Shown one piece after another: positions 5,190-60,410 of a stretch of DNA of 64,000 nt; position 1 is the first letter of the stretch; each line of letters starts with the position of its first letter. The notes under the pieces are model-generated. The model ran no database searches. It saw nothing but the letters and a program-made list of their open reading frames with translations, and had not been told where the DNA came from. Where the stretch lies: NCBI GenBank assembly GCA_036426205.1, contig CM071573.1, positions 77,827,114 to 77,891,113 of the forward strand, in the 5' to 3' direction. Position numbers and translations under genes: made by a program. Source of the stretch: Ascaphus truei. Taxonomy: Eukaryota > Chordata > Amphibia > Anura > Ascaphidae.

Positions 5190-5629
5190 ACCCTTAAGTG
5201 GTGCCTTACCCGCTTATTGCCTAGGGATGGGTCTGGCCCGGCCACCTCAAGGTTCCTCAGCCAGCCAACGACCAGTGGAAGGCCCATGGTGTAGGCTATT
5301 CAGATCAAGCCGGGCCAGCAAACCAAAGATTTAAAGGGGTTTCAAACACGTTGTTGGAAGAAATAAATAGCATGTGCTTCCACTCCTGAACAGTGTGGCT
5401 TAGTGTTGGAGAAACTGGTCTTTGGAGTGGGGGGATCAAGTTAAAGTGTCCGTCATTTCCTTGTGATCTTGGGAAATGTAATTCATCTTGGGGGGGTACA
5501 GGAATTTATGGTGTACATACAGTACAGCAAACCATGTCCATGCAAAATACAGTATTAACATTTAGCTGACAGAGGGGCCAGCAATGCATTGAGATACTGG
5601 AGTTATCTTTGCAAACACCATTCCAGAGA
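5190..5629. other. Intergenic, downstream of PRXL2A
   Basis: No coding potential or clear repeat seen; a short local inverted match (CATTTCC/GGAAATG) lies near 5450-5480. Confidence 0.5.
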
Positions 5630-5652
5630 TGCAAACGTGAGACTGTAAAAGA

Positions 5653-5658
5653 TTTATT
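5653..5658 (-). terminator. Polyadenylation signal AATAAA of PRXL2A
   Basis: AATAAA on the minus strand, about 70 bases after the SECIS, is followed within 40 bases by a T/G-rich stretch (TGGAATGGTGTTTG). It is the only canonical signal on this strand between the stop codon and here. Confidence 0.65.
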
Positions 5659-5726
5659 AGTTAAGACATGTTTTCGATGTTTGTTTGGGTCAACCTGCCC
5701 TTCCAAGCCCCCACATGTTCCATTCA

Positions 5727-5813
5727 CCTCTCTGCCTTTCGCCGAAGAACATCCAGCCCGCGCCAGAAATCTTTCAACACGGGATTTCATAGATACGGTG
5801 AGCGGCAGAGAGG
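5727..5813 (-). promoter_or_regulatory. SECIS element candidate in the PRXL2A 3'UTR
   Basis: On the minus strand a perfect 10-bp outer stem (5813-5804 with 5736-5727) encloses an internal loop, then ATGA (5790-5787). Helix II is A-T, one mismatch, then nine pairs (CCCGTGTTG 5783-5775 with TGGCGCGGG 5765-5757). The apical loop AAAGATTTC starts with the unpaired A's, and the 3' GA of the quartet is at 5753-5752. The 11-position spacing between quartet and apical A's is what SECIS elements require. Energy folding was not run. Confidence 0.82.
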
Positions 5814-6146
5814 TTCGTGGTGCCGGAGGGCGGTGAGAGGACCGTCCGATCTTCGTCAATACAACATTACAAATGGAATGGGACGGTGAGGTCCACCCTG
5901 TGTGAACGCATGCACTTAACTCCTACACATCTATCTTCTGGGATAATGTCTTTGGTCTCTAACAACTTCGTCCAGTTAAAGCTCTTTCAGCCCCAGGCGA
6001 GCTGATGGTTTTCTGGCAGGGAAAAAGCTTAGTGGGAATTAAAAAATAAGAAAGATGCTTTTTTTGGGGGGGTTGAGAAGGAGTTAGAACGGCTAAGTGC
6101 CAACAGTGATAAGATAAAGTAAATACGTACGGCTGTGCCTCTAACT

Positions 6147-6325
6147 CAGGGGTGGGCAACTCCAGGCCTCAAGGGCCACCAACAGGTCAGGTTTGCTGAA
6201 TCTCTGCTTCAACACAGGTGGCTCAATCAGTGGCTGTCTTCGACTGAGCCACCTGTGCTGAAGCAGGGGTATCCTGACAACCTGACCTGTTGGTGTACCT
6301 TGAGGACTGACGTTGTCCACCCCGG
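6147..6325. mobile_element. hAT palindromic MITE in the PRXL2A 3'UTR
   Basis: It starts CAGGGGTGGGCAACTCC and ends in the imperfect complement CCACCCCGG. It is nearly palindromic, with GGTGGCTCAATCAG at its centre. Flanking 8-bp duplications CTCTAACT and CTCTAACC differ at one base, which fits hAT insertion. Confidence 0.85.
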
Positions 6326-8063
6326 CTCTAACCTCACTATCTGAAGTACTGATGTGAAAGGATACCGGTGTTATCATCGGACAACTCACATTTTTCTAAA
6401 TGCAAGAATTGTGACAGTTTGCTTTGCTTTTTGAACTAACGCGCTAAACATTTTAATCAATGCATCTTCTCCCTGTTATTAAATCCGTCCCTTAGGTGTC
6501 AGATTTCGGCCACCCTTCAATTCTACATTGAAATGGCTTGTCCGTCCTTTTCCCCTCTTGCTCACATACGACCTTTGGTATTCCAGAGAACTACTGCTGA
6601 GGAAAAAAAAAACCATGAGGAACGCTCAAAACCAAGCAAGTGTTCCAAAAACCCGAAACATTCACTTTCGTTCTCTACACCCAACTCACTGCAGGATTCT
6701 TTCCTCGGTGTCTTGGGGGATTTAATTCAACACTGTACATTCTGTGCTATGTTTTGCAGAGAAGGGAGTTTGGCAGGGAGATGATTTCACACCCAAACAG
6801 GTTGCGAAGAGAGAGATCACTCTATTGTCAATATGGCTACAGCAACTCTGTTTGTAGCCAGAGATGGTTCACTGGCAGCAAAATGGTTAAAGCCAAACGT
6901 GGCATGGTAAGTTTGAGACCACAGATCATTTTACTGCCTTGGGGTCCTACTTGGTTTAATATGATGGTCGCCAAGAGCAGAAAGATTGCCGTAGCTGGGC
7001 CATTCATAAGCCTGCTAAGATAAAATAAATATTCACGCAAGGGATAACGCCCCATTGCCTGGGCACGCCAGGCTCAGCCGGCACTGGAAATATCCCAGAG
7101 CAATGAATCAGTGTTTGCAGAAGGATTCCCAAGTGTGTCACCAGCATTGATGGGGTTCTCTCCGTAATTGGAGATGCTGAAGTATCAACCTTTTAAACAA
7201 CTGGATTACATCTGCAAACGGCTAAAAATACAAGCAAATCCCCTACTTCTAAACCTGGCTCTCACAGCCCGAGGGCGTACTTTCTCTGGGTTAAAAATAG
7301 ATCAACCTCCTTGTGATCTAAAAATAATGGAAACTGTTGGTAACATGAGTAATTATAAAAAGACAGTGGCGGTTAATCGTTAGGTTGTTATAGTGACGAT
7401 CGTATTGAAGTCAACAGGAGTTTCTGTGCAACAGCGCCCCGATCAACACTATTGCAGTTTAATGACTAACCCCCCTACTGTCCTATAATGCCCGTGTGAA
7501 ACCACACAATGCCATTACCCAATGGTTTTACTTTACGCCTTGGGGGTTATTTATCGTAGTATTCTTTTTAATGGACTGTCTAATATTTTACCATCAGTTT
7601 TTCCCTGTAAAACAGCTTTTGTATAAAATTGCCGTTTAGCATTTACTTAAAAATGATAGTAGGAGAGATTTTTCTTTTAACTAAGTGGCAATAGAACCAT
7701 GAATGGTGCCAGAGAGAAGGGATTACAGACTGCTACGGATCAGTGTTCTACTGCAACTTTGAGAGAACTTGGTGAGTTCGTGTCGCTGGGCATCAAAGTA
7801 CTTTCCATCAATTGCACAGGCCTTACACTGTGCTGCGGCAGTGCAAAGGTGTCTGGGTAACAGATCTGCAACAAACTTGGAAAACTAGTGTAGTAGATTA
7901 AAAAAAAAAAAACTAAAGTGCTTCTGGGAGCATTGGAAGTAATCCAACGAAAGAATGAGAGCGGGACACGGCGATATGTACGTAAGAATCGGTCGGAATT
8001 CTGCAATGTTCCGTTTACAGATTCAGGCAGCTACAAAGTATCTTGGTGAAGTTAGTCACAGAT

Positions 8064-8174
8064 CTAGTCATCGCCGCCTGACGTCTGCGTGTCTATCTTT
8101 CTAGCAGCTTCAAGGACGGCCGTCATATTCGCCTTATCTCCGAACTCCTTCTCACGGTGCTCCAGGATAATTCC
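8064..8174 (-). CDS. PRXL2A: PRXL2A terminal coding exon 5
   Basis: The acceptor TTTTTTTTCCAG is followed by 36 codons (residues 193-228) and TAG at 8066-8064. It reads GIILEHREKEFGDKANM and then a helix ending in acidic GGDD. This matches the C-terminus of PRXL2A (GI-LEHREKEFGDK), which is diagnostic for the family. The frame carries no ATG until well inside, so the exon does not show up as an open reading frame and was found by reading the sequence. Confidence 0.93.
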   Translation of the reverse strand, partial: GIILEHREKEFGDKANMTAVLEAARKIDTQTSGGDD

Positions 8175-11100: not shown

Positions 11101-14100
11101 CTTTGTGGTAGGCACGGGTGGGAACATTATGGCCGGTATAACAGGGACTTATCCCTGTTGAAGAAACACTCTCTAAAATCCAGCAGGGATCCGGTTATGT
11201 GCAGCAGGCAATTAACCAGACTCCTGGCCAATTACGTTTCTTAGAAAAGCCTCCTGTTTCTAAAAGGAGAGAGATTCCTTAGCTCACAAGGGAGCTGACC
11301 AAGGAAAAGAAAGAGACTGCAGTGATTTTCTTAGCCCACACCTGGGCTGAACTAAGGAAAAGAAGATGTCTTCATGCACACAGGACTCATTGCATTCGCA
11401 AGACAAGGTGACAAGACCTCTATACCTGGACGCAGAGTGCCATAGCACACGAGGATGCTGACCCAGGAGAACAGAGAGGCCTTCCCCTACAGAAACCCCA
11501 GGTACAGATAAGAGGCTTTCTTTTTCGACTGTTGTGTGTGTGTGTATATGTATTATATACATACACATGTGTTTGGGGTGGTAAACAGCTTAGCTACCCA
11601 CCCAGTTAGATAGGGCTGGAGTAAAATGTGTAGTGATCTCTCCAAAGTGGAATATGTTTTTCTTTAATCTTTGTGTTTGCAGTGTTTAAAGGAACATGCG
11701 CAATAAAGCCTTATTTTAATTTCACCTTAAAAAAAAAAAAAACAGTCTCCATTGCATACATCTCCTACAGCCGGGCTATGGGTTAGGTGCATGGAGGGCT
11801 TGCTTTGTGGTGGGGCAGCGATGGTAACATTATGGTCAGGTATGGGTTAGGTGTATGGAGAGCGTGCTTTTTGGGTGGGCAGAGATGGTAACATTATGGT
11901 CAGGTATGGGTTAGGAGCAAGAAAGCTTGCCTGGTGGGTGGGGAGGGGTAGTAACGTCATGGTTTGGGTATGGGTTAGGTGCATGGACAGCTTGCTTAGG
12001 GATAGTAACATCATGGTTTGGGTATGGGTTAGGTGCATGGAGAGCTTGCTTGGTGGGTGGGCAGGGGTTGGACATACCTTTGCAAAACAGTTTTTATAGC
12101 TCACGTGCAGAAAAAAAACCAAAAAAAAACCACTAAAGCAGCTCAGGAGGCTCGATGTTGAAACTTGCCTACATTGTGCTCCCTCTTCCACAGAGCCCAA
12201 AATCCAAAAGCTTGTGGCAAACCAGCAGGTCACAGTCACACTTTGACGCAAATAATGTAAAACAATTTTTACAAATTCTTTGATTTGTTTTTAGTCGCGA
12301 TATTTCAAATAAAATGATTGGGGGAGGCAGGTTTGAAGGGGGGTGCGAGGTTCAGGTTTATCAAAGGCAGGCATCAGTTAAAGCAACAATACCACAGTGC
12401 CCCTTTTTGCTTATTTTTATATGTAAAGCATGTGCCAATGTATAATTGTACCTGCTTCCCAGAGCCAATCACAAACACTCCTCCAAGGATCACCCCTTCT
12501 CCTTCCAGGTTCCCCGTGTAACCGCTCTTCCAGGCCCGGCGGAAGTTCTGGATCACGCCCAGCCGTAGAAATCCCATCAGCATCATCTTCCTCCTCTGGG
12601 GACCATAGAAGCGTTTCTGCACAGGACACAGAGGAAAGACGAGAGGTCTAGCAGCAGACGTGGAAGCGGAAATGCAGTTAGAGCCGAGGCGGACAACTCC
12701 AGTCATCAAGGGCCCCCAACAGGTCAGGGTACCGATCAAATAGTCTCGTGCCTCAACGCCAGATATTCTATTGTCTAAATCAGCGGTGTTCCTCTCCTCA
12801 AAACGCCCCCAACAGGTCAGGTCTTCGACTGAGCCACCTGTGCTGAAGCAGGGATATCCAGAAAACCTGACCTGTTGAGGGGGTCTTAAGGATTGGAGTT
12901 AAGCACACCCCGAGTTAGAGCCATAGAACTGCTCCTCCATAATCTGTAACAATTGTAGCAGAATAAATATTGAAAGGCTGTTTTTCAGAGTTAAACCTAT
13001 AAACTCACCTGGGAAAAGCAGCGCAATGTATACAGAACATAAATTAGCGCATATTTAAAAAAAAATTTAAAAAATACACAACACACCTTTTTTGAATCCA
13101 TATTTCTTCAACATTAAATACTACTGATTTCACAATTAAATATACATTCAGGTGTTCATTTACAAAATAAAATAAAAATTAAGGACCAAAAGAAAAGTAA
13201 CTCATTGCCAGACGGGACATTTACATCTCATGTCTCTGCAGGATACATTCTTCAGTGAGGTATAGGGAGTTCTTTATTAAACTGCGATAGTGCCGATCTG
13301 GGCAAAAGGCACGCGAAAACTCCAACTGAAGTCAATGGGAGTTTTGTGCTACAGTGCCCCGATCGGCACTATCACAGTTTAATGAATAGCCCCCCAGTGT
13401 GAACCTCCAAGTATGGACATAACACTACTACCGGGGCAAGGCGTTGCTCAGATAAATGGAAGAACCAAGCTTGACTTCCAATTATAGGTGGAGAGAGAAG
13501 AATCTTCTCTGCCAGTGCTCAAAGTTAGAGAATTTGCTTCTCCTTAGAAATATTTAATAGCTATATACAGTAGCATGATCATTATTTCAATTGCACCATT
13601 GTTGGAGGATCCAGGTAAATGTATTGAGTAAAACTGTAATAAGGTCAATTGTGCTCATTGTTAGGGGTGTGGGTAACACATAGAAAAGGGATGTCAAGGG
13701 AACCTAAATAAACCAGGGACCCTGACCCCTATCTAAATAATAACTCCAACAGCAACCCTTAGAGCTGGACCATAAAGATAAAGAACAGTGTCAAAGACAT
13801 GTTACTGACGACCCTTATAAATGCGGTCCATCTGTTCCTTGCGTGCTCTCACTCCGATGTGTATAGTAGTAGACAATCACCATGGATAGGGGGAAAGATG
13901 GCGGTGCACAGCGTGCCAGCAAGTGCCTCATGCGGAAGTAAAACGGTAGATACACGAAACGCGTCAGTTACTTCTCTAGGTGATTTTTTCTTTTTAAATG
14001 ATGTCTTTGCTGTTCAGTGTTGTTCATTAAATTTTTGTATTGGAAAATCGCCATCCAGCTTCCGTTTTACTTCCTGCTTCCGGGACGCATGAGGCACTTG

Positions 14101-17100
14101 CTGGCACGCTGTGCACCGCCATCTTTTCCCCTATCCAGGGTGATTTTCTACTGACTTCCAATTATGGCGACATTTGGATACGGATTATCTCCCTGTATCT
14201 GAGGTATGGAAACTCAGATTAAAACCACTTTAGGGTGAAAGAATCTTCTTTATCTTTGCTTCAGAATCCCAAACATTTTCAGAAGTGAATCTTTACAGAT
14301 TTGCTCATCATACTCTTTACATTAGAGTAGGTTTGTTAGGTTTATATCACGGTAACACAGCGGCGCGCAAACTGGGGGCGCGAGATTGTCTGCGGGGGGC
14401 GCGGGGTATACAGAGGCCCACGCGCGCTTCCCGAAAGCTAAGTGCCGGGGAAGCAGCAAAAGCCTCTGTAAACTGCACTTACCTTGGCTCCGGCGGCTTC
14501 TGGAGACGCGTCGCCATGGCAACGCACGGTCATGTGACGTCACATTGACACTGACGTAAGGGGGGGGTGCGGAGAGAGGGGTACAGCCAGCAGGGGGCAC
14601 AGGGAAAAAAAGATCGCGCTCCCCTGCGGTAACGTATGCCGCCCTTTAACGGAACGGAAAAGTCAGAGTACATCTTGTGTCTGTGTTACAATTTTATCCT
14701 GTGGTTGGAGGCACAACCCGTTGTCAATTGTCATTTTCAAAACTTTCTGCAATAACCACTGAACAGTTCCATTGAGGAGATTGAACATGTAGGTGAAAGT
14801 CTATTTAAAAGGTGCAGTTCAAGCCGTCTTTTAATTAATTTATTTTTTACATTCCATCTGTGCACCAATACAATCTACACACTGACAAGTGATTAGCTAA
14901 GTTGCTGATCGATCCGTTCTCCTGTAATCGATCGCTGAAATTCGGCTGTGGGTTCACTAAATGCATCTTGGGTAATCTTCTGCTGCACTGACAGCCAAAG
15001 TTCTGTGAGGAAGATCATGTGACCAGGCAGGCACTAGATTCAATTGGTTCCCTGCTAGAGAGGGCAGGGCTCAAAAGGGTGATGCTGTTTCGGAAGGGGA
15101 AGGGGATGTGATTTTGTATATGGTCGCTTTAGGAACAAAAAATGCCTTATACATTAAAAATGTCTTTAAAAAAAATTATTATTTTTTTAAATGCTACAAG
15201 TATTTTCTCAGAGTATAGAACTGATATATTACAAAAAACACATTGCTTGAAATGCTGCTTTAACCGTGTGTGAGAGCCAGGATCTGAAAGCCAAGAGATT
15301 AAGGAGAGCGAATGGCAAAGTTTGGGAATACAACAGGCGATGAGACTGCACCTTTTCATCAAGATAGATCTCTCCTTTGAAATACGGTTGGAAATCCTCA
15401 ACTTCAGTCCCAATCTTCTCTTTCACCACCGCATAGAGAGGAACGCCCAACTGGTCCAGTTGAGGTTTTAGAGAGGACAGCTCGGAGGCCTCCTGCAGTA
15501 CAAGGCAATGGAGATAGTTAGTGGCTTATTAAATGAAACAGCTGAAGTGGTGAAATCACAATTTGCTTGGCTGGACCCATAGAAATGAAGGATTCAGAGG
15601 CGATTGTGAAGAAAAATAACACATGGTTTTGCTTTCGGGTGGAGAACGTGCCGGGGCATCTTTCCAAGGGACCATTCATGGATTTCAAGTAAAGGACAAA
15701 CTTTGCCATGTATTCCATCCCATCAACGCAGCAGGAGCGTTGAAACCCTTTAAATGCACATACTGACACGTGTTATCGTTTAGGTCATCTGTGGGTTTTA
15801 CGTGGCCAAACCAATGTCAAAAGCATGTTAAAGTTACAGTTCTTAGCCAGATTCACTAAAAGGGTGCCAAGACATGCTAAAGCTTAACTCCTGTTCATTT
15901 GAATGGGAACTGAGGCGTGCTAACGCGCAGCACCATTTAGTAAACCTGGGCCTTAACGCAGAACGTTTTAGAACAATTGCAATTAGGATACGCTAAATTA
16001 TTATGCTCATCATTGATTGAAGATTCACTGCCAAGAGTCACACCACAGCGCAAAGAAACAAAGCAAAAACATTAAAAAAAAAGTACACAAGATAAATCCA
16101 AATAAAGATGAACAGGGCAAATTATTCATTTGTTTCGGTTATGTTCTCTTATGATACAGCAATACAGTATATAATATAATGCTGCACACCACAAATGACA
16201 AAAATATATACTTGCTTTTACCGGTGCTCCTGGTCCAAGGGAGTCCCTGTCAGTGAAAAAACTCCAAAGTAGCAACCAGAGAGATGTACCAGGGCACAAG
16301 CAACCAGAGAGATGTACCAGGGCACAAGCAACCAAAGAGATGTACCAGGGCACAAGCAACCAAAGGGATGTACCAGGGCACAAGCAACCAAAGAGATGTA
16401 CCAGGGCACTCACTCGTATGATACAGACATTAGAAAAAAAAATTAAAGTGACAAAACCTCCACGGTACAGTAAATAAAAATCCACTTGTGAGCACATTCA
16501 CGTCTCAGACAGGTCTGCAACTCTGTCTTTCCCCATTATCGCTTAGCGAACAGGGCTTCCACTGCAGCCAGGGATTCTGGGTAATGACATGCAAATGAGC
16601 ACAGGGAGTCCCTCTTTACTTCTTAATCCATTACGTGGAACCCGATAAGCTTATGCATTCACAAACACAGCTGAAAAGGTGTTCATTCCGAAACTTAGAA
16701 TGCAAGTAGGAGCAGGACAGACCGAAAAGGAAATAAAAGCACGAGAAATACAAGAAAGAGGAAAGGTGAATAAAGAACAGTACAGGTCTGGTTCTGCCGC
16801 AGAACCGTGGAAATCAGGAACCACAATTCCTAGAGACGTGTAAATGTTACCTCTCTGCACAGAAATCATCCAGGTCTGCGTACCGCCATAATCACCGCTC
16901 CGTTACCAACCCACAGCTCCCTGGCTTTAAGAGACCGTGGTTCTACAGAGGAGACAGCAGGATTATGGTGGGTACAAGTTGTGCCATGTACACATACCGC
17001 TGTGAGATCACCCGATTAGACAGGTTTAGAATCCCTGTTATTTTGACACTATACAGTAGGTGTATAGGCGACATGGAACGTGCAGAAATAGCACTAGGCT

Positions 17101-17736
17101 GTTTGTTTTCATGGGTATATTGACCGTTTTCTCCCTTGTGGTGAAAACATTACATTCAATATAATATATTCAATTAAACTACAGGGTTGTGAAGATTACA
17201 CTTTTATATAAAAAACACACACATTTGGTCTTCCCATCTTTTTGTACACAGAAACCCAGATCTATATAATATATGCAGGGTGGGGATAATTTCTTAAGCA
17301 ATAATAGATGGCACCTCATTAAAAAGTTAGCAGTTAGGTGTTTAAATATAGGAAAGGATCATGTTTGGAAGGTATCTGCAGTCCAATTGTAAAATGTATA
17401 ATGGTAGATTTGTGCTATGAGAACAGGAAAATACTCTCTTAAAACTAGATCATTAAATAACATGGAGGTGGAAGTTTAGGTTTGTGAATAAAAACACACG
17501 GGCTACAGCAGTGTCTCCTCAACTTTACAATGTTCCCTCAGGCCAATCATGTTCTCACCTTCTGCAATAGTCCTTAGCTCTGTCTCTTCTAAATATTCGA
17601 GGGTGGCCTTATCAGTTCTTGAGAGGAACAAGTCCGTGTTGGCTAGAATTATCCCTGCCACCGCTGCCCCCAAGGCTCCGACGCTGATGGACCACAAACC
17701 CATGGTGAAGAATTCAGGCGCGGGCAGGGAACACAT
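8064..17736 (-). CDS. PRXL2A: Peroxiredoxin-like 2A / selenoprotein U1, five coding exons
   Basis: The coding sequence is the join of 17736-17559, 16942-16851, 15492-15352, 12616-12452 and 8174-8064, read on the minus strand, giving 228 residues with one in-frame TGA at codon 85. Exons agree in phase and all introns are GT-AG. The product is a thioredoxin-fold (AhpC/TSA-like) redox protein. Residues 13-37 form a hydrophobic N-terminal segment; 74-90 hold the strand and active site, reading RRPG-U-FLC, i.e. UxxC where mammals have CxxC; 106-141 carry the GVPLYAVVKE and FQPYFKGEI signatures; 171-190 hold GNLEGEG and GGVFVIGSGKQ. The start was chosen because ATG follows the acceptor by two bases and gives the same 15-residue leader up to T-M-G-x-W as the human protein, as I remember it. 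Selenoprotein U is known with Sec in fish and birds and with Cys in mammals. The Sec reading is inference from the TGA plus the SECIS; the family assignment is firm. Confidence 0.95.
8402..8695. mobile_element. Palindromic frog MITE (family A)
   Basis: The arms GGGGGTGTCTCCAGAGTTGA and TCAGCTCTGGAGACCCCCGC match the family at 4841-5185. Confidence 0.7.
8700..9505. other. Unique intronic sequence
   Basis: No repeat recognised. 9060-9420 has dense transcription-factor-like motifs (TTTGTCAACAATAGG, AAAGAAAACA, CAGTAATTAAATCAT) and could be a conserved intronic element; this needs alignment to test. Confidence 0.35.
9512..10157 (+). pseudogene. Tigger/pogo-like transposon remnant, N-terminal transposase
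   Basis: A TA-flanked left end (CAGGCAGTCCTCGTTTTACA) leads into a decayed transposase. It starts MSDKTKV at 9711; after a stop and frame damage it reads KRSEKGEMNAEIGRALDIPR (CENP-B-type helix-turn-helix), then RHVPISLALIQGKAL and FTASRSWFMLFKERANLCN. All are typical of Tigger transposases. The DDE catalytic part and the right end are absent; a reversed LTR fragment begins at 10158. Confidence 0.8.
10158..10355 (-). mobile_element. LTR fragment (LTR-3 family, R/U5 side)
   Basis: The reverse complement matches 56280-56475 of the solo LTR at 55725, including CTACGGCAGATGGAGGCGCTG, TGTTACCAGCAGGTAT and GATTCAGCCCTCC. It abuts the broken Tigger transposase directly. Confidence 0.75.
10356..10935 (+). 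mobile_element. L1-like LINE 3' end
   Basis: The encoded tail has WMSTDLPTIHQVKARI...MEKLTGVLRD, aligning with the C-terminus of L1-type ORF2 and with the copy at 392-1124. It ends with C-rich 3'UTR tracts and an A tail near 10925-10935. Confidence 0.75.
11137..11769 (+). mobile_element. Solo LTR (LTR-4 family) with 5-bp TSD
   Basis: It runs from TATAACAGGGACTTATCC to CATACATCTCCTACA, 633 bp, with an AATAAAGCC poly(A)-type signal near 11702. GCCGG (11132-11136 and 11770-11774) flanks both ends. A second, reversed copy of the family lies at 50895-51476, where the first bases are TGTAAC. Confidence 0.85.
11775..12075. repeat. Minisatellite, about 55-70 bp unit, 4-5 copies
   Basis: The unit TATGGGTTAGGTGCATGGA...GGTAACATTATGGTCAGG recurs at about 11778, 11840, 11904, 11968 and 12020, with variable length. 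Open frames crossing it are repeat artefacts. Confidence 0.85.
12380..12451. repeat. Interspersed repeat abutting the exon 4 donor
   Basis: AAAGCAACAATACCACAGTG through CAATGTATAATTGTAC matches 25108-25180 over about 70 bases; the match ends at the exon boundary. Confidence 0.6.
12452..12616 (-). CDS. PRXL2A: PRXL2A coding exon 4
   Basis: This is a 55-codon exon (residues 138-192) with acceptor CTGTGCAG, phase 0 at both ends. It encodes KRFYGPQRRKMMLMGFLRLG, then NFRRAWKSGYTGNLEGEG and ILGGVFVIGSGKQ. The donor GTACAA is a weak match to consensus and lies at the edge of a copy of an interspersed repeat also seen at 25110-25180 (see findings). Confidence 0.95.
12690..12912. mobile_element. hAT palindromic MITE, interrupted copy
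   Basis: One arm start at 12690-12725, then unrelated bases, then the other arm (12782-12912) with GCCACCTGTGCTGAAGCAGG. Confidence 0.7.
13262..13395. mobile_element. Palindromic MITE
   Basis: The arms TATTAAACTGCGATAGTGCC and GGCACTATCACAGTTTAATG are inverted copies; a half copy is at about 7384-7480. Confidence 0.75.
13866..14150. repeat. Long inverted repeat of Penelope pLTR type
   Basis: Arms of about 85 bp (13868-13948 and 14059-14149), e.g. AAGATGGCGGTGCACAGCGT against its complement. The spacer holds ACACGAAACGCGTC (13952-13965, plus strand), the 3' core of the ribozyme motif, with no 5' core. Confidence 0.7.
14355..14635. mobile_element. CpG-rich hAT-like element, ends uncertain
   Basis: CAGCGGCGCGCAAACTGGGG resembles a hAT terminus; the right end is not recognisable. 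Confidence 0.4.
14821..15250. repeat. Interspersed repeat (family B)
   Basis: Shares GATCGATCCGTTCTCCTGT, CTGCACTGACAGCC and the following 300 bases with 28085-28575 and, reversed, with 43240-43690. Confidence 0.7.
15352..15492 (-). CDS. PRXL2A: PRXL2A coding exon 3
   Basis: This is a 47-codon exon (residues 91-137) with acceptor TACTGCAG and donor GTGCAG, phase 0 at both ends. It encodes EASELSSLKPQLDQL, followed by GVPLYAVVKEKIGTEVEDFQ and PYFKGEIYLDEK, which match the thioredoxin-fold core of PRXL2A closely. The open frame runs on past the donor for several codons, but the similarity stops exactly at DEK. Confidence 0.95.
16255..16410. repeat. Tandem repeat in a PRXL2A intron
   Basis: AGAGATGTACCAGGGCACAA with GCAACCA spacers, five to six copies of a roughly 28-bp unit. 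The repeated peptide-like open frames on both strands are artefacts of the repeat. Confidence 0.9.
16490..16650. repeat. Interspersed repeat (family C)
   Basis: AGACAGGTCTGCAACTCTGT and GGGATTCTGGGTAATGACAT match 20755-20960. Confidence 0.7.
16851..16942 (-). CDS. PRXL2A: PRXL2A coding exon 2, active-site exon with in-frame TGA
   Basis: This 92-base exon has acceptor CTCTGTAG and donor GTAACA. The split codon from exon 1 gives Glu60, then 30 codons (residues 61-90). The reading is KARELWVGNGAVIMAVRRPG, then TGA, then FLCRE, which matches the PRXL2A active-site region except that TGA stands where mammals have Cys. Open-reading-frame finders break at this codon, so the exon is easily missed. 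Sequence on both sides of the TGA is conserved, which argues against decay downstream of a nonsense mutation. Confidence 0.93.
16866..16868 (-). other. PRXL2A: Probable selenocysteine codon (TGA, residue 85)
   Basis: The frame reads GGA-TGA-TTT-CTG-TGC on the minus strand, i.e. G-U-F-L-C. The TGA aligns with the first Cys of the CxxC redox motif of mammalian PRXL2A; the second Cys (residue 88) is kept. It lies 15 bases before the splice donor. Recoding is inferred from the position, the intact downstream exons and the SECIS-type hairpin at 5727-5813. The alternative is a loss-of-function allele or an assembly error. Confidence 0.88.
16943..17558 (-). other. PRXL2A intron between coding exons 1 and 2
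   Basis: AT-rich intron of 616 bases with donor GTGAGA and acceptor CTCTGTAG. I recognise no repeat or other element in it. Confidence 0.85.
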
Positions 17737-17738: not shown

Positions 17739-17744
17739 CTGAAA

Positions 17745-21070: not shown

Positions 21071-21148
21071 CATACTTTATATAAGTTATGGTGGGTGAAA
21101 AAATACCTCCACCGCCTTTTTCACCCACCATAACTTATATAAAGTATG
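21071..21148. repeat. Perfect 32-bp inverted repeat
   Basis: The left arm 21071-21102 (CATACTTTATATAAGTTATG...) and right arm 21117-21148 are exact complements, with a 14-bp spacer. Confidence 0.9.
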
Positions 21149-23319: not shown

Positions 23320-23585
23320 TTCATACATAGGCGTGCACCCCTTATTCTATAGGACATAGGCGTGCGCCCCTTATTCTATAGGACATATGCGTGCGCCCCT
23401 TATTCTATAGGACATAGGCGTGCGCCCCTATTCTTATAGGAATAGGGGGCGCCCCTATTCTATCGGACATAGGGCGTGCGCCCCTTATTATAGGACATAG
23501 GCGTGCGCCCCTTATTCTATAGGACATAGGCGTGCGCCCCTTATTCTATAGGACATAGGCGTGCGCCCCTTATTCTATAGGAATA
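23320..23585. repeat. Minisatellite, 28-29 bp unit, about 9 copies
   Basis: Unit GGACATAGGCGTGCGCCCCT-TATTCTATA, with one degenerate pair of units near 23430-23480. Confidence 0.95.
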
Positions 23586-37304: not shown

Positions 37305-37421
37305 TATGACGTAGCTACTACATCATGGGACTGCAGCAGAGCCAGACCACAGGGTGGGGGGACTCCCAAAGGCGTAATGAGGAACTGAAAATATTGAAAC
37401 TATCAGCTTGTGATATGTATA

Positions 37422-38250
37422 TTTGTATTTATATAGCTCCACCAATGTATGCAGCGCTTTTCAAAAGAGGCAATAAATTACAGGGACTTATAATACAATA
37501 AGTGCAAGAAACATCACATCAACAGTTGGAAAGGAAATCCCTGCCACGGAGAGCTTACAATCTAAATGGTAGGATGAGAGACTTCCAGAGACAGCAGGTG
37601 AGGGGGTAAGTGCAGTAGATGGTCGTGCTTGGCCGCAATGGTTGGTAAGAGTGACTGTGGGTGTGGGACAGTAACCATGAGTCCAGGCTATTGAGATGCT
37701 TCACTCATATGGTGTGTTTTTAGGTTTAGCTCAGCACTTGGCATATTCTGAGTGCGATACAGTTCACAGATATCGGGCAGTGATGGAAAAAGGTTTACGA
37801 CGAAAGAGCAGTAGAGGTGAAAGTGGTAGAAAGGAGACAGTTATGAGCAGACCGCAGGAGACGAGCAGGGGCATAACGAGAGGTCGAAGCTGATATGTAG
37901 GGAGGAGCAGATGAGTACCTAGTCCTAGAGCCTTAGGTAAAGAGGAGAACTTTGTAGGTGATGTAAAACTTGGTGGGAAGCCAGGAGAGGGATTTAAGGA
38001 GGTGATGAGCAGGGACTGGGAGAAAGTGAAATGATTCTAGCTGCAGAATGTTGTATAGATTGCAAAGGAGAACGTTTCCAGACAGGGATACCTGGCTGTT
38101 AGTAGTAAATGACGATAATCCAGAGGCAAGAAGATACGGGCATGCATTAGAGTGTTAGCAGTACTGTGAGAGAGGCAAGGGCAGAGTTGTAGTTCCTGAC
38201 CAGGTTGTCAAGAATCTGTAGCGGAAGAAAAAAGCAGGACAGCGTGAGCC
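37422..38250 (-). mobile_element. CR1/L2-type LINE 3' region, reversed
   Basis: TATTTATATAGCTCCACCAA...GAGCTTACAATCTAA, then further untranslated sequence up to about 38250. Confidence 0.55.
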
Positions 38251-59580: not shown

Positions 59581-59737
59581 CAGGGGTAGCCAGCCAACAG
59601 GTCAGGTGTCCAAGATATCCCTGCTTCAGCACAGATGGTGCAGAAAAGACTGAGCCACTGATTGAACCACCTGTGCTGAAGCAGGGATATCCTGAAAACC
59701 TGACCTATTGGTGGCCCTTGGGGACTGGAGTTGGCTA
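59581..59737. mobile_element. hAT palindromic MITE
   Basis: GCCAACAGGTCAGGTGTCC...GGACTGGAGTTGGC, both arms present, ends worn. Confidence 0.8.
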
Positions 59738-59739
59738 TT

Positions 59740-60410
59740 GCGGTATTACACTATTTGCTTCAGCAATGGATCTAAAACACTCTGATAGCAGAAGGCTTTC
59801 TGACAAAGTCCGCTCTTTTGAACCCTTCATCCATGGAGCAGACACAAGGTTTGAACTTGTGTTGGTTCAGTGGACACAACAGGACGTATTCTGTTCACTT
59901 TATCCCTTGCTGCCTTTTGTCTGGAAAACAAAAGCTATAGCACATGCTTACACATAATGCTTCCACAGAAACACACATGTTTTTTTTTTTTTAAAGCTGA
60001 ATATTTGATGATTACACAAGAAAAATGTGCTTTGTATTTGTTTAGCAGTGTGTTTTGGTTTCAACTAACCTGGCCAGGCACCTGGAATGTAAAATAGTTT
60101 CTCCTTGTACAAAAGTGAACCAGTGAAAGTGACACCTTTAAACAAATACAATTGCTGCAATAGCTGCCTTTTTCATCTCTAAGCTTTTTTAATAAAATAG
60201 TTTTTCAGTAAAACTTTCTATACAAATTAACCTGCAATTTGGGGGCGTTTTACTTTCTTTACATCCATCCTGCACACCCAACTGTAATAGTCGATGTAGT
60301 CAATATCATACGCAATAAGAAGCATGCATGCTGGCTTCCCTCCATGGAGTCTGAATGCTGATTAATAGAAGGATAAATATTTCCAAACTGAACGATGGGA
60401 TCTCTCCCAT
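59740..60410. other. AT-rich non-coding
   Basis: No recognised feature. Confidence 0.45.

Follow-up and report, generated by a model that had tools for sequence, protein, structure and literature searches.

Probable selenoprotein U1 gene in the frog Ascaphus truei, with an in-frame TGA at the redox site of PRXL2A

Introduction

The PRXL2A gene of the frog Ascaphus truei carries an in-frame TGA at the codon where human PRXL2A has the first cysteine of its CxxC motif, and the question raised by this locus is whether the codon is read as selenocysteine (Sec), terminates translation, is removed by splicing, or is an error in the assembly. The lineage of Ascaphus is among the first to branch off within the frogs. 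Sec forms of the protein, selenoprotein U1 (SelU1), are known from fish, birds, reptiles and platypus according to passages of PMC3316567 and PMC3473315, and Table 1 of PMC3316567 has Sec SelU1 ticked for fish, birds and platypus, with frog not ticked. No paper naming both “Ascaphus” and “selenoprotein” was found in the literature searched.

Results

Structure of the PRXL2A gene

The window, as used here, is the whole 64-kb stretch of A. truei DNA that was analysed. It was searched by tblastn with the human PRXL2A sequence, which has C85 in its CFLC motif, and the human protein maps to five collinear exons, the borders of which were then refined:

17559–17736, minus strand: PRXL2A/SelU1 coding exon 1, with the start ATG at 17736
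16851–16942, minus strand: PRXL2A/SelU1 coding exon 2, 92 nt, with the in-frame TGA at 16866–16868 (codon 85) and the UFLC motif
15352–15492, minus strand: PRXL2A/SelU1 coding exon 3
12452–12616, minus strand: PRXL2A/SelU1 coding exon 4
8064–8174, minus strand: PRXL2A/SelU1 coding exon 5, closing with a true stop, TAG

The introns between the coding exons are of the GT-AG type in all four cases, and the joined frame comprises 687 nt, i.e., 228 codons and the TAG, which bears out the five-exon gene proposed in a preliminary description of this DNA. Frameshifts elsewhere in the gene had been named there as grounds for refutation; the remaining exons are open, and the 687 nt hold no damage apart from the TGA. 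The borders given earlier for exon 2 proved exact, with intact splice sites on both sides (acceptor side tctcctctgtag, donor side gtaacattta), and to this position can be added the strand, which had been left unstated and is minus. Exon 2 translates as EPRSLKARELWVGNGAVIMAVRRPG-TGA-FLCRE. On the strength of the alignment, chance is no explanation for its match to human PRXL2A, because the match reaches 80.6% with an E value of 2.5e-11 in the tblastn search of the window, the redox Cys being its sole interruption. If codon 85 is taken as Cys, the spliced product is identical to human PRXL2A in 164 of 229 alignment columns.

An acceptor-like TTTCAG is present at 17739–17744 on the minus strand, 2 nt ahead of the ATG. 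A non-coding exon upstream of coding exon 1 is therefore likely, and the gene probably does not start with coding exon 1.

The window further contains three tandem arrays:

11777–12064: 64-nt unit, 4.7 copies
16271–16409: 28-nt unit, five copies, in the intron after PRXL2A exon 2
23325–23582: 29-nt unit, nine copies

A long inverted repeat at 21074–21146 has the look of a small hairpin transposon and draws weak matches from several unrelated microRNA models. Three tblastn queries for neighbouring genes (MAT1A, a tetraspanin-14-like sequence and a piece of DYDC2) gave nothing convincing; the best match consists of 16 tetraspanin-like residues (LELAIAVLHYLLQQWI) at 59725–59772 on the plus strand (E 0.059). 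As TSPAN14 adjoins PRXL2A in mammals, this match may be an exon or may be due to chance. Eight of the longer open frames in the window gave no Pfam match at E 0.01.

Codon 85 and the predicted product

The sole in-frame stop of the spliced frame is the TGA at codon 85 (GGA TGA TTT CTG TGC), and the 143 codons that follow are open up to the TAG. In its context, AVRRPG-TGA-FLCREE, the codon is the counterpart of C85 of human CFLC, and the replacement of the first Cys of CxxC by TGA, reported earlier, is thus confirmed in the alignment. A TGA at position 1 of CxxC with an open frame beyond is what characterizes SelU1, and the product also contains the Prx-like 2 domain expected of a SelU1/PRXL2A member (Pfam AhpC-TSA_2, PF13911; E 1.3e-23, 84 bits against a cut-off of 27). 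It matches a relative of solved structure, PRXL2B (PDB code 9us9), over residues 63–214 with an E value of 9.5e-18, and the first Cys of the GCVVC motif of 9us9 falls opposite residue 85. The best database matches (best 120 of 556) are PRXL2A proteins, and in the protein tree the product is placed inside the frog PRXL2A clade with support values of 99/99.

Copy number and rate of change

A search of the whole assembly with a Rhinophrynus PRXL2A query gave five matches at E 0.01, one per exon and all at this locus; no second PRXL2A copy was found by this search, in which eight candidates were scored. The exon 1 match shows an internal TAG, but this is where the match overruns the splice site, and the exon proper is open. 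Mean identity to four amniotes is 73.5% for the Ascaphus product and 71.0–75.0% for eight other frogs (over at most 209 columns). The value lies within the range of the other frogs and therefore gives no sign of gene decay.

A SECIS-like element downstream of the gene

Two features downstream of the stop codon are relevant to Sec insertion:

5742–5798, minus strand: SECIS-like element, ATGA ... AAAG (apical loop) ... GGAT, in the presumed 3′ UTR
5653–5658, minus strand: AATAAA, the first canonical signal after the stop, possibly marking the end of the 3′ UTR

The element is located 2274 nt past the TAG and about 84 nt ahead of the AATAAA, and its outer stem extends to about 5733–5812. Eight variant poly(A) signals (ATTAAA, AGTAAA) occur earlier than the first AATAAA, between the stop and the element, which we infer to lie within the 3′ UTR of the mRNA. 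The Rfam model RF00031 (SECIS_1) matches at 5742–5798 on the minus strand with 19.9 bits, below the gathering score of 35; the E value is 3.2 for 4.7 kb and 4227 Rfam families, or by our own arithmetic about 8e-4 for SECIS_1 alone. In this alignment, the ATGA core, the apical-loop AAA and the GAT sit where the family consensus has them, and the region including the outer stem (86 nt) folds with −32.6 kcal/mol. SECIS was absent from the Rfam results for two 4.7-kb control stretches up to E 10. An Rfam scan of 21 kb likewise listed no SECIS up to E 10, but by our arithmetic 19.9 bits would correspond to an E value of about 14 in 21 kb, so that absence there is not counter-evidence.

We also scanned for a pattern of our own ([A/G]TGA, a helix, AA or CC in the apical loop, GA, and an outer stem). 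A stricter first version did not pick 5742–5798, because it allowed at most two unpaired bases at the base of the helix; the limit was relaxed to four, together with other limits, when the Rfam match was already known. Run over both strands of the 64 kb, the relaxed scan yielded 36 candidates, among which the element ranks first (−31.2 kcal/mol, with the next best at −22.8), and none of 1000 dinucleotide shuffles of the 2463 nt at 5601–8063 reached −31.2 (best −23.9), although scan and shuffles are not wholly independent of the Rfam match, since the limits were loosened in knowledge of it. The element thus agrees with a downstream SECIS in position, core motifs and shuffle statistics, with an Rfam score below the gathering score.

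Control selenoprotein genes and tRNA-Sec

For comparison with other selenoprotein genes of the same genome, we used a GPX4 sequence as query, which gave eight matches, four of them with an internal TGA. Two GPx-type genes have TGA at the Sec codon, L025 (NVASK-TGA-G), presumably GPx4-like, and L026 (NVASL-TGA-G), presumably GPx1-like. SECIS_1 matches are found downstream on the same strand in both, with 31.2 and 34 bits. As these control matches also fall short of 35, probable real SECIS elements in this genome can score under the gathering threshold; the element of SelU1 (19.9 bits) is weaker than either. Our own scan ranked the SECIS match first in L026, and outside the top four in L025.

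A DNA search for tRNA-Sec gave two look-alikes, 87% and 86% identical, about 1.2 kb apart on the same 39-kb contig (C14906, 36203–36291 on the plus strand and 37418–37493 on the minus strand). The first scores 42.1 bits, short of the cut-off of 47, and shows several insertions and deletions; ARAGORN calls no tRNA there. An intact tRNA-Sec gene was not found in the assembly, with profile scoring covering 53 of 171,810 family candidates, and the gene may be missing from the assembly.

The deposited protein and a recurrent 11-residue gap

The best of the 556 matches to the product is the deposited A. truei protein FKM82_015319 (206 residues), which is identical over the 206 overlapping columns. 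It lacks the first 11 residues and, in addition, VRRPGUFLCRE (residues 80–90), which is the entire redox motif. The internal gap corresponds to use of an in-frame GT in codon 80 (16881–16883, minus strand) as splice donor, GCG/GTACGC. The warning in the preliminary description that annotation would lose the true product has accordingly come true for this protein, and a deposited entry without its active-site motif is an error that can be corrected. Of 149 database proteins, 15 have a gap of 11 residues at the same place; they come from fishes, birds, reptiles and Ascaphus, and the deposited A. truei protein is one of them. We take this recurrence, as seen in the sequences, to be an artefact of gene predictors around Sec codons.

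Sec and Cys among frogs

Among the 120 rows listed of 556, 29 of the 30 named frog rows have Cys at the site, and the 30th is the Ascaphus row with the gap. According to a passage of PMC3473315, two frogs have Cys, for which an independent change later than the divergence of the modern amphibians is suggested. The earlier statement that the family has Sec in fish and birds and Cys in mammals is therefore incomplete, in that PMC3473315 reports its two frogs as a separate Cys lineage.

The Cys entries differ in how far they can be trusted. The letter U occurs in none of the 149 database proteins compared, and the row of the bird Lagopus has C although birds are reported with Sec; a stored C may therefore stand for U in some records. 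This could apply to C in RefSeq-type rows, above all Bombina and Discoglossus. In our judgement, C is most reliable in five frog-clade rows from unannotated read assemblies (P0013, P0017, P0026, P0031 and P0044) and in the GenBank-style predictions for Hymenochirus, Engystomops, Ranitomeya, Staurois and Pelobates cultripes.

A row that starts with MCREE we read as the mark of an in-frame TGA. Such starts are seen in 10 of the 149 database rows, and two of the 149 have W at the place of codon 85. A region search with Bombina gave no near-identical short row starting with MCREE among the 120 listed of 476. Three rows from read assemblies, P0094, P0123 and P0124, carry the TGA signature (W in one, an MCREE start in two) and branch outside the frogs in our trees, near the base of the tetrapod rows; they may be salamander. 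Our trees do not reproduce the early branching of Ascaphus: the base of the frogs is not resolved in the tree of full-length proteins, and in the tree from a shorter alignment Bufo is placed outside Ascaphus and the rest, contrary to accepted relationships.

Discussion

The locus is very probably the A. truei selenoprotein U1 (PRXL2A) gene. The selenoprotein reading put forward in the preliminary description is supported by the intact frame, the position of the TGA at the Sec site of the family, the SECIS-like element, the normal rate of change, and the absence of a second copy from the assembly search.

Four other accounts have to be weighed against a SelU1 gene that has kept its Sec codon. 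If a Cys codon (TGC or TGT) had recently become a true stop in the Ascaphus lineage, the gene would be a dying one, a recent pseudogene or null allele; a lone in-frame stop in an otherwise Cys order (all 29 other named frogs among the 120 rows listed) and the weak SECIS score would fit such a history. We consider it very improbable, because 687 nt without other damage and four intact GT-AG introns are hard to reconcile with decay, as is the normal rate of change, and because the stop is a TGA at the only site in the family with known Sec, with a SECIS-like element downstream that 1000 shuffles did not match. The same element also speaks against a single-base sequencing or assembly error in an animal that really has Cys, as a base error would not create it. 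Such an error would involve one base in one assembly, but it is unlikely to fall on the exact Sec codon of the family, and no second copy was found that could have caused a mis-assembly; its probability is next to negligible.

The TGA might instead never be translated, if the alternative donor at GCG/GTACGC removed 33 nt of exon 2 and with them VRRPGUFLCRE, for which both the exact gap in the deposited A. truei protein and its recurrence at the same place in the 15 database proteins can be adduced. This is extremely unlikely: the whole redox motif would be deleted, though the Cys frogs keep it, GTACGC is a poor donor, avoidance of a stop is the usual behaviour of gene predictors, and the SECIS-like element would serve nothing. 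It is a long shot that the 33-nt donor, beyond the annotation artefact, works as a genuine switch in splicing that Sec-type PRXL2A genes have conserved. If it did, splicing at the GT of codon 80 under low selenium would drop the UGA motif, the mRNA would escape premature termination, and the form made when selenium is scarce would be a redox-dead protein. A last account accepts the same selenoprotein but gives it a different history, in which frogs were ancestrally Cys and Sec was regained in Ascaphus. Cys in the other 29 named frog rows (120 listed) would agree with this, but a reversal needs a SECIS that was retained without use or regained, Sec forms have been described from fish, birds, reptiles and platypus (passages of PMC3316567 and PMC3473315), and, according to the legend to Figure 1 of PMC3316567, Cys-to-Sec conversions were not found. 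We regard it as quite improbable.

For the favoured reading, a SelU1 gene with an inherited Sec codon, the comparison of sequences suggests that Ascaphus has probably retained Sec and that Cys took its place within the frogs. Given the 29 Cys rows and the reports in the cited parts of PMC3473315 and PMC3316567, the history is most simply described by an ancestral Sec and one Sec-to-Cys change in the other frogs after the split from Ascaphus.

Sec insertion at UGA, directed by a SECIS through SECISBP2 and eEFSec, is established selenoprotein biology. By analogy, a ribosome would meet the UGA at codon 85 of the SelU1 mRNA, the SECIS hairpin in the 3′ UTR would recruit SECISBP2 and eEFSec with tRNA-Sec, and selenocysteine would be inserted in place of termination. 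The expected product is a Prx-like 2 protein of 228 residues that has a UxxC redox centre (U85, C88) and, at its N-terminal end, a hydrophobic stretch. Transcription of the gene, Sec insertion at codon 85 and redox function are all predicted from what is seen in related systems; the mammalian protein loses redox activity when its CXXC motif is mutated, according to a passage of PMC5150245.

Among vertebrates, SelU1 clearly exemplifies the repeated replacement of Sec by Cys. Because Cys has already been reported for two frogs, Sec in Ascaphus is more informative than a further case of the fish or bird type would be. It suggests that the Cys form of frogs probably arose within the frogs and not at the base of the amphibians, which would narrow its timing, and the Sec and Cys forms of a single enzyme could be compared closely, as they occur in nature, between Ascaphus and its Cys relatives.

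Ascaphus SelU1 adds a new member to a known family. As for SelU1 of fish, birds, reptiles and platypus, it belongs to the same family, has a Sec codon first in UxxC, and is followed by a SECIS-like element; it differs in that it occurs in a frog, an order for which Cys was reported from two species in the cited passage of PMC3473315. The likeness to PRXL2A (FAM213A, PAMM, adiporedoxin) of mammals and other frogs extends along the whole human protein (the 164 of 229 columns given above), but Ascaphus has a TGA (Sec) codon for the first Cys of CxxC. The prostamide/prostaglandin F synthase PRXL2B (SelU3; 9us9) has its GCVVC in register with the Ascaphus motif. Unlike the Ascaphus protein, it represents a separate SelU subfamily with Cys at the place of Sec, and the match to it leaves out the N-terminal stretch.
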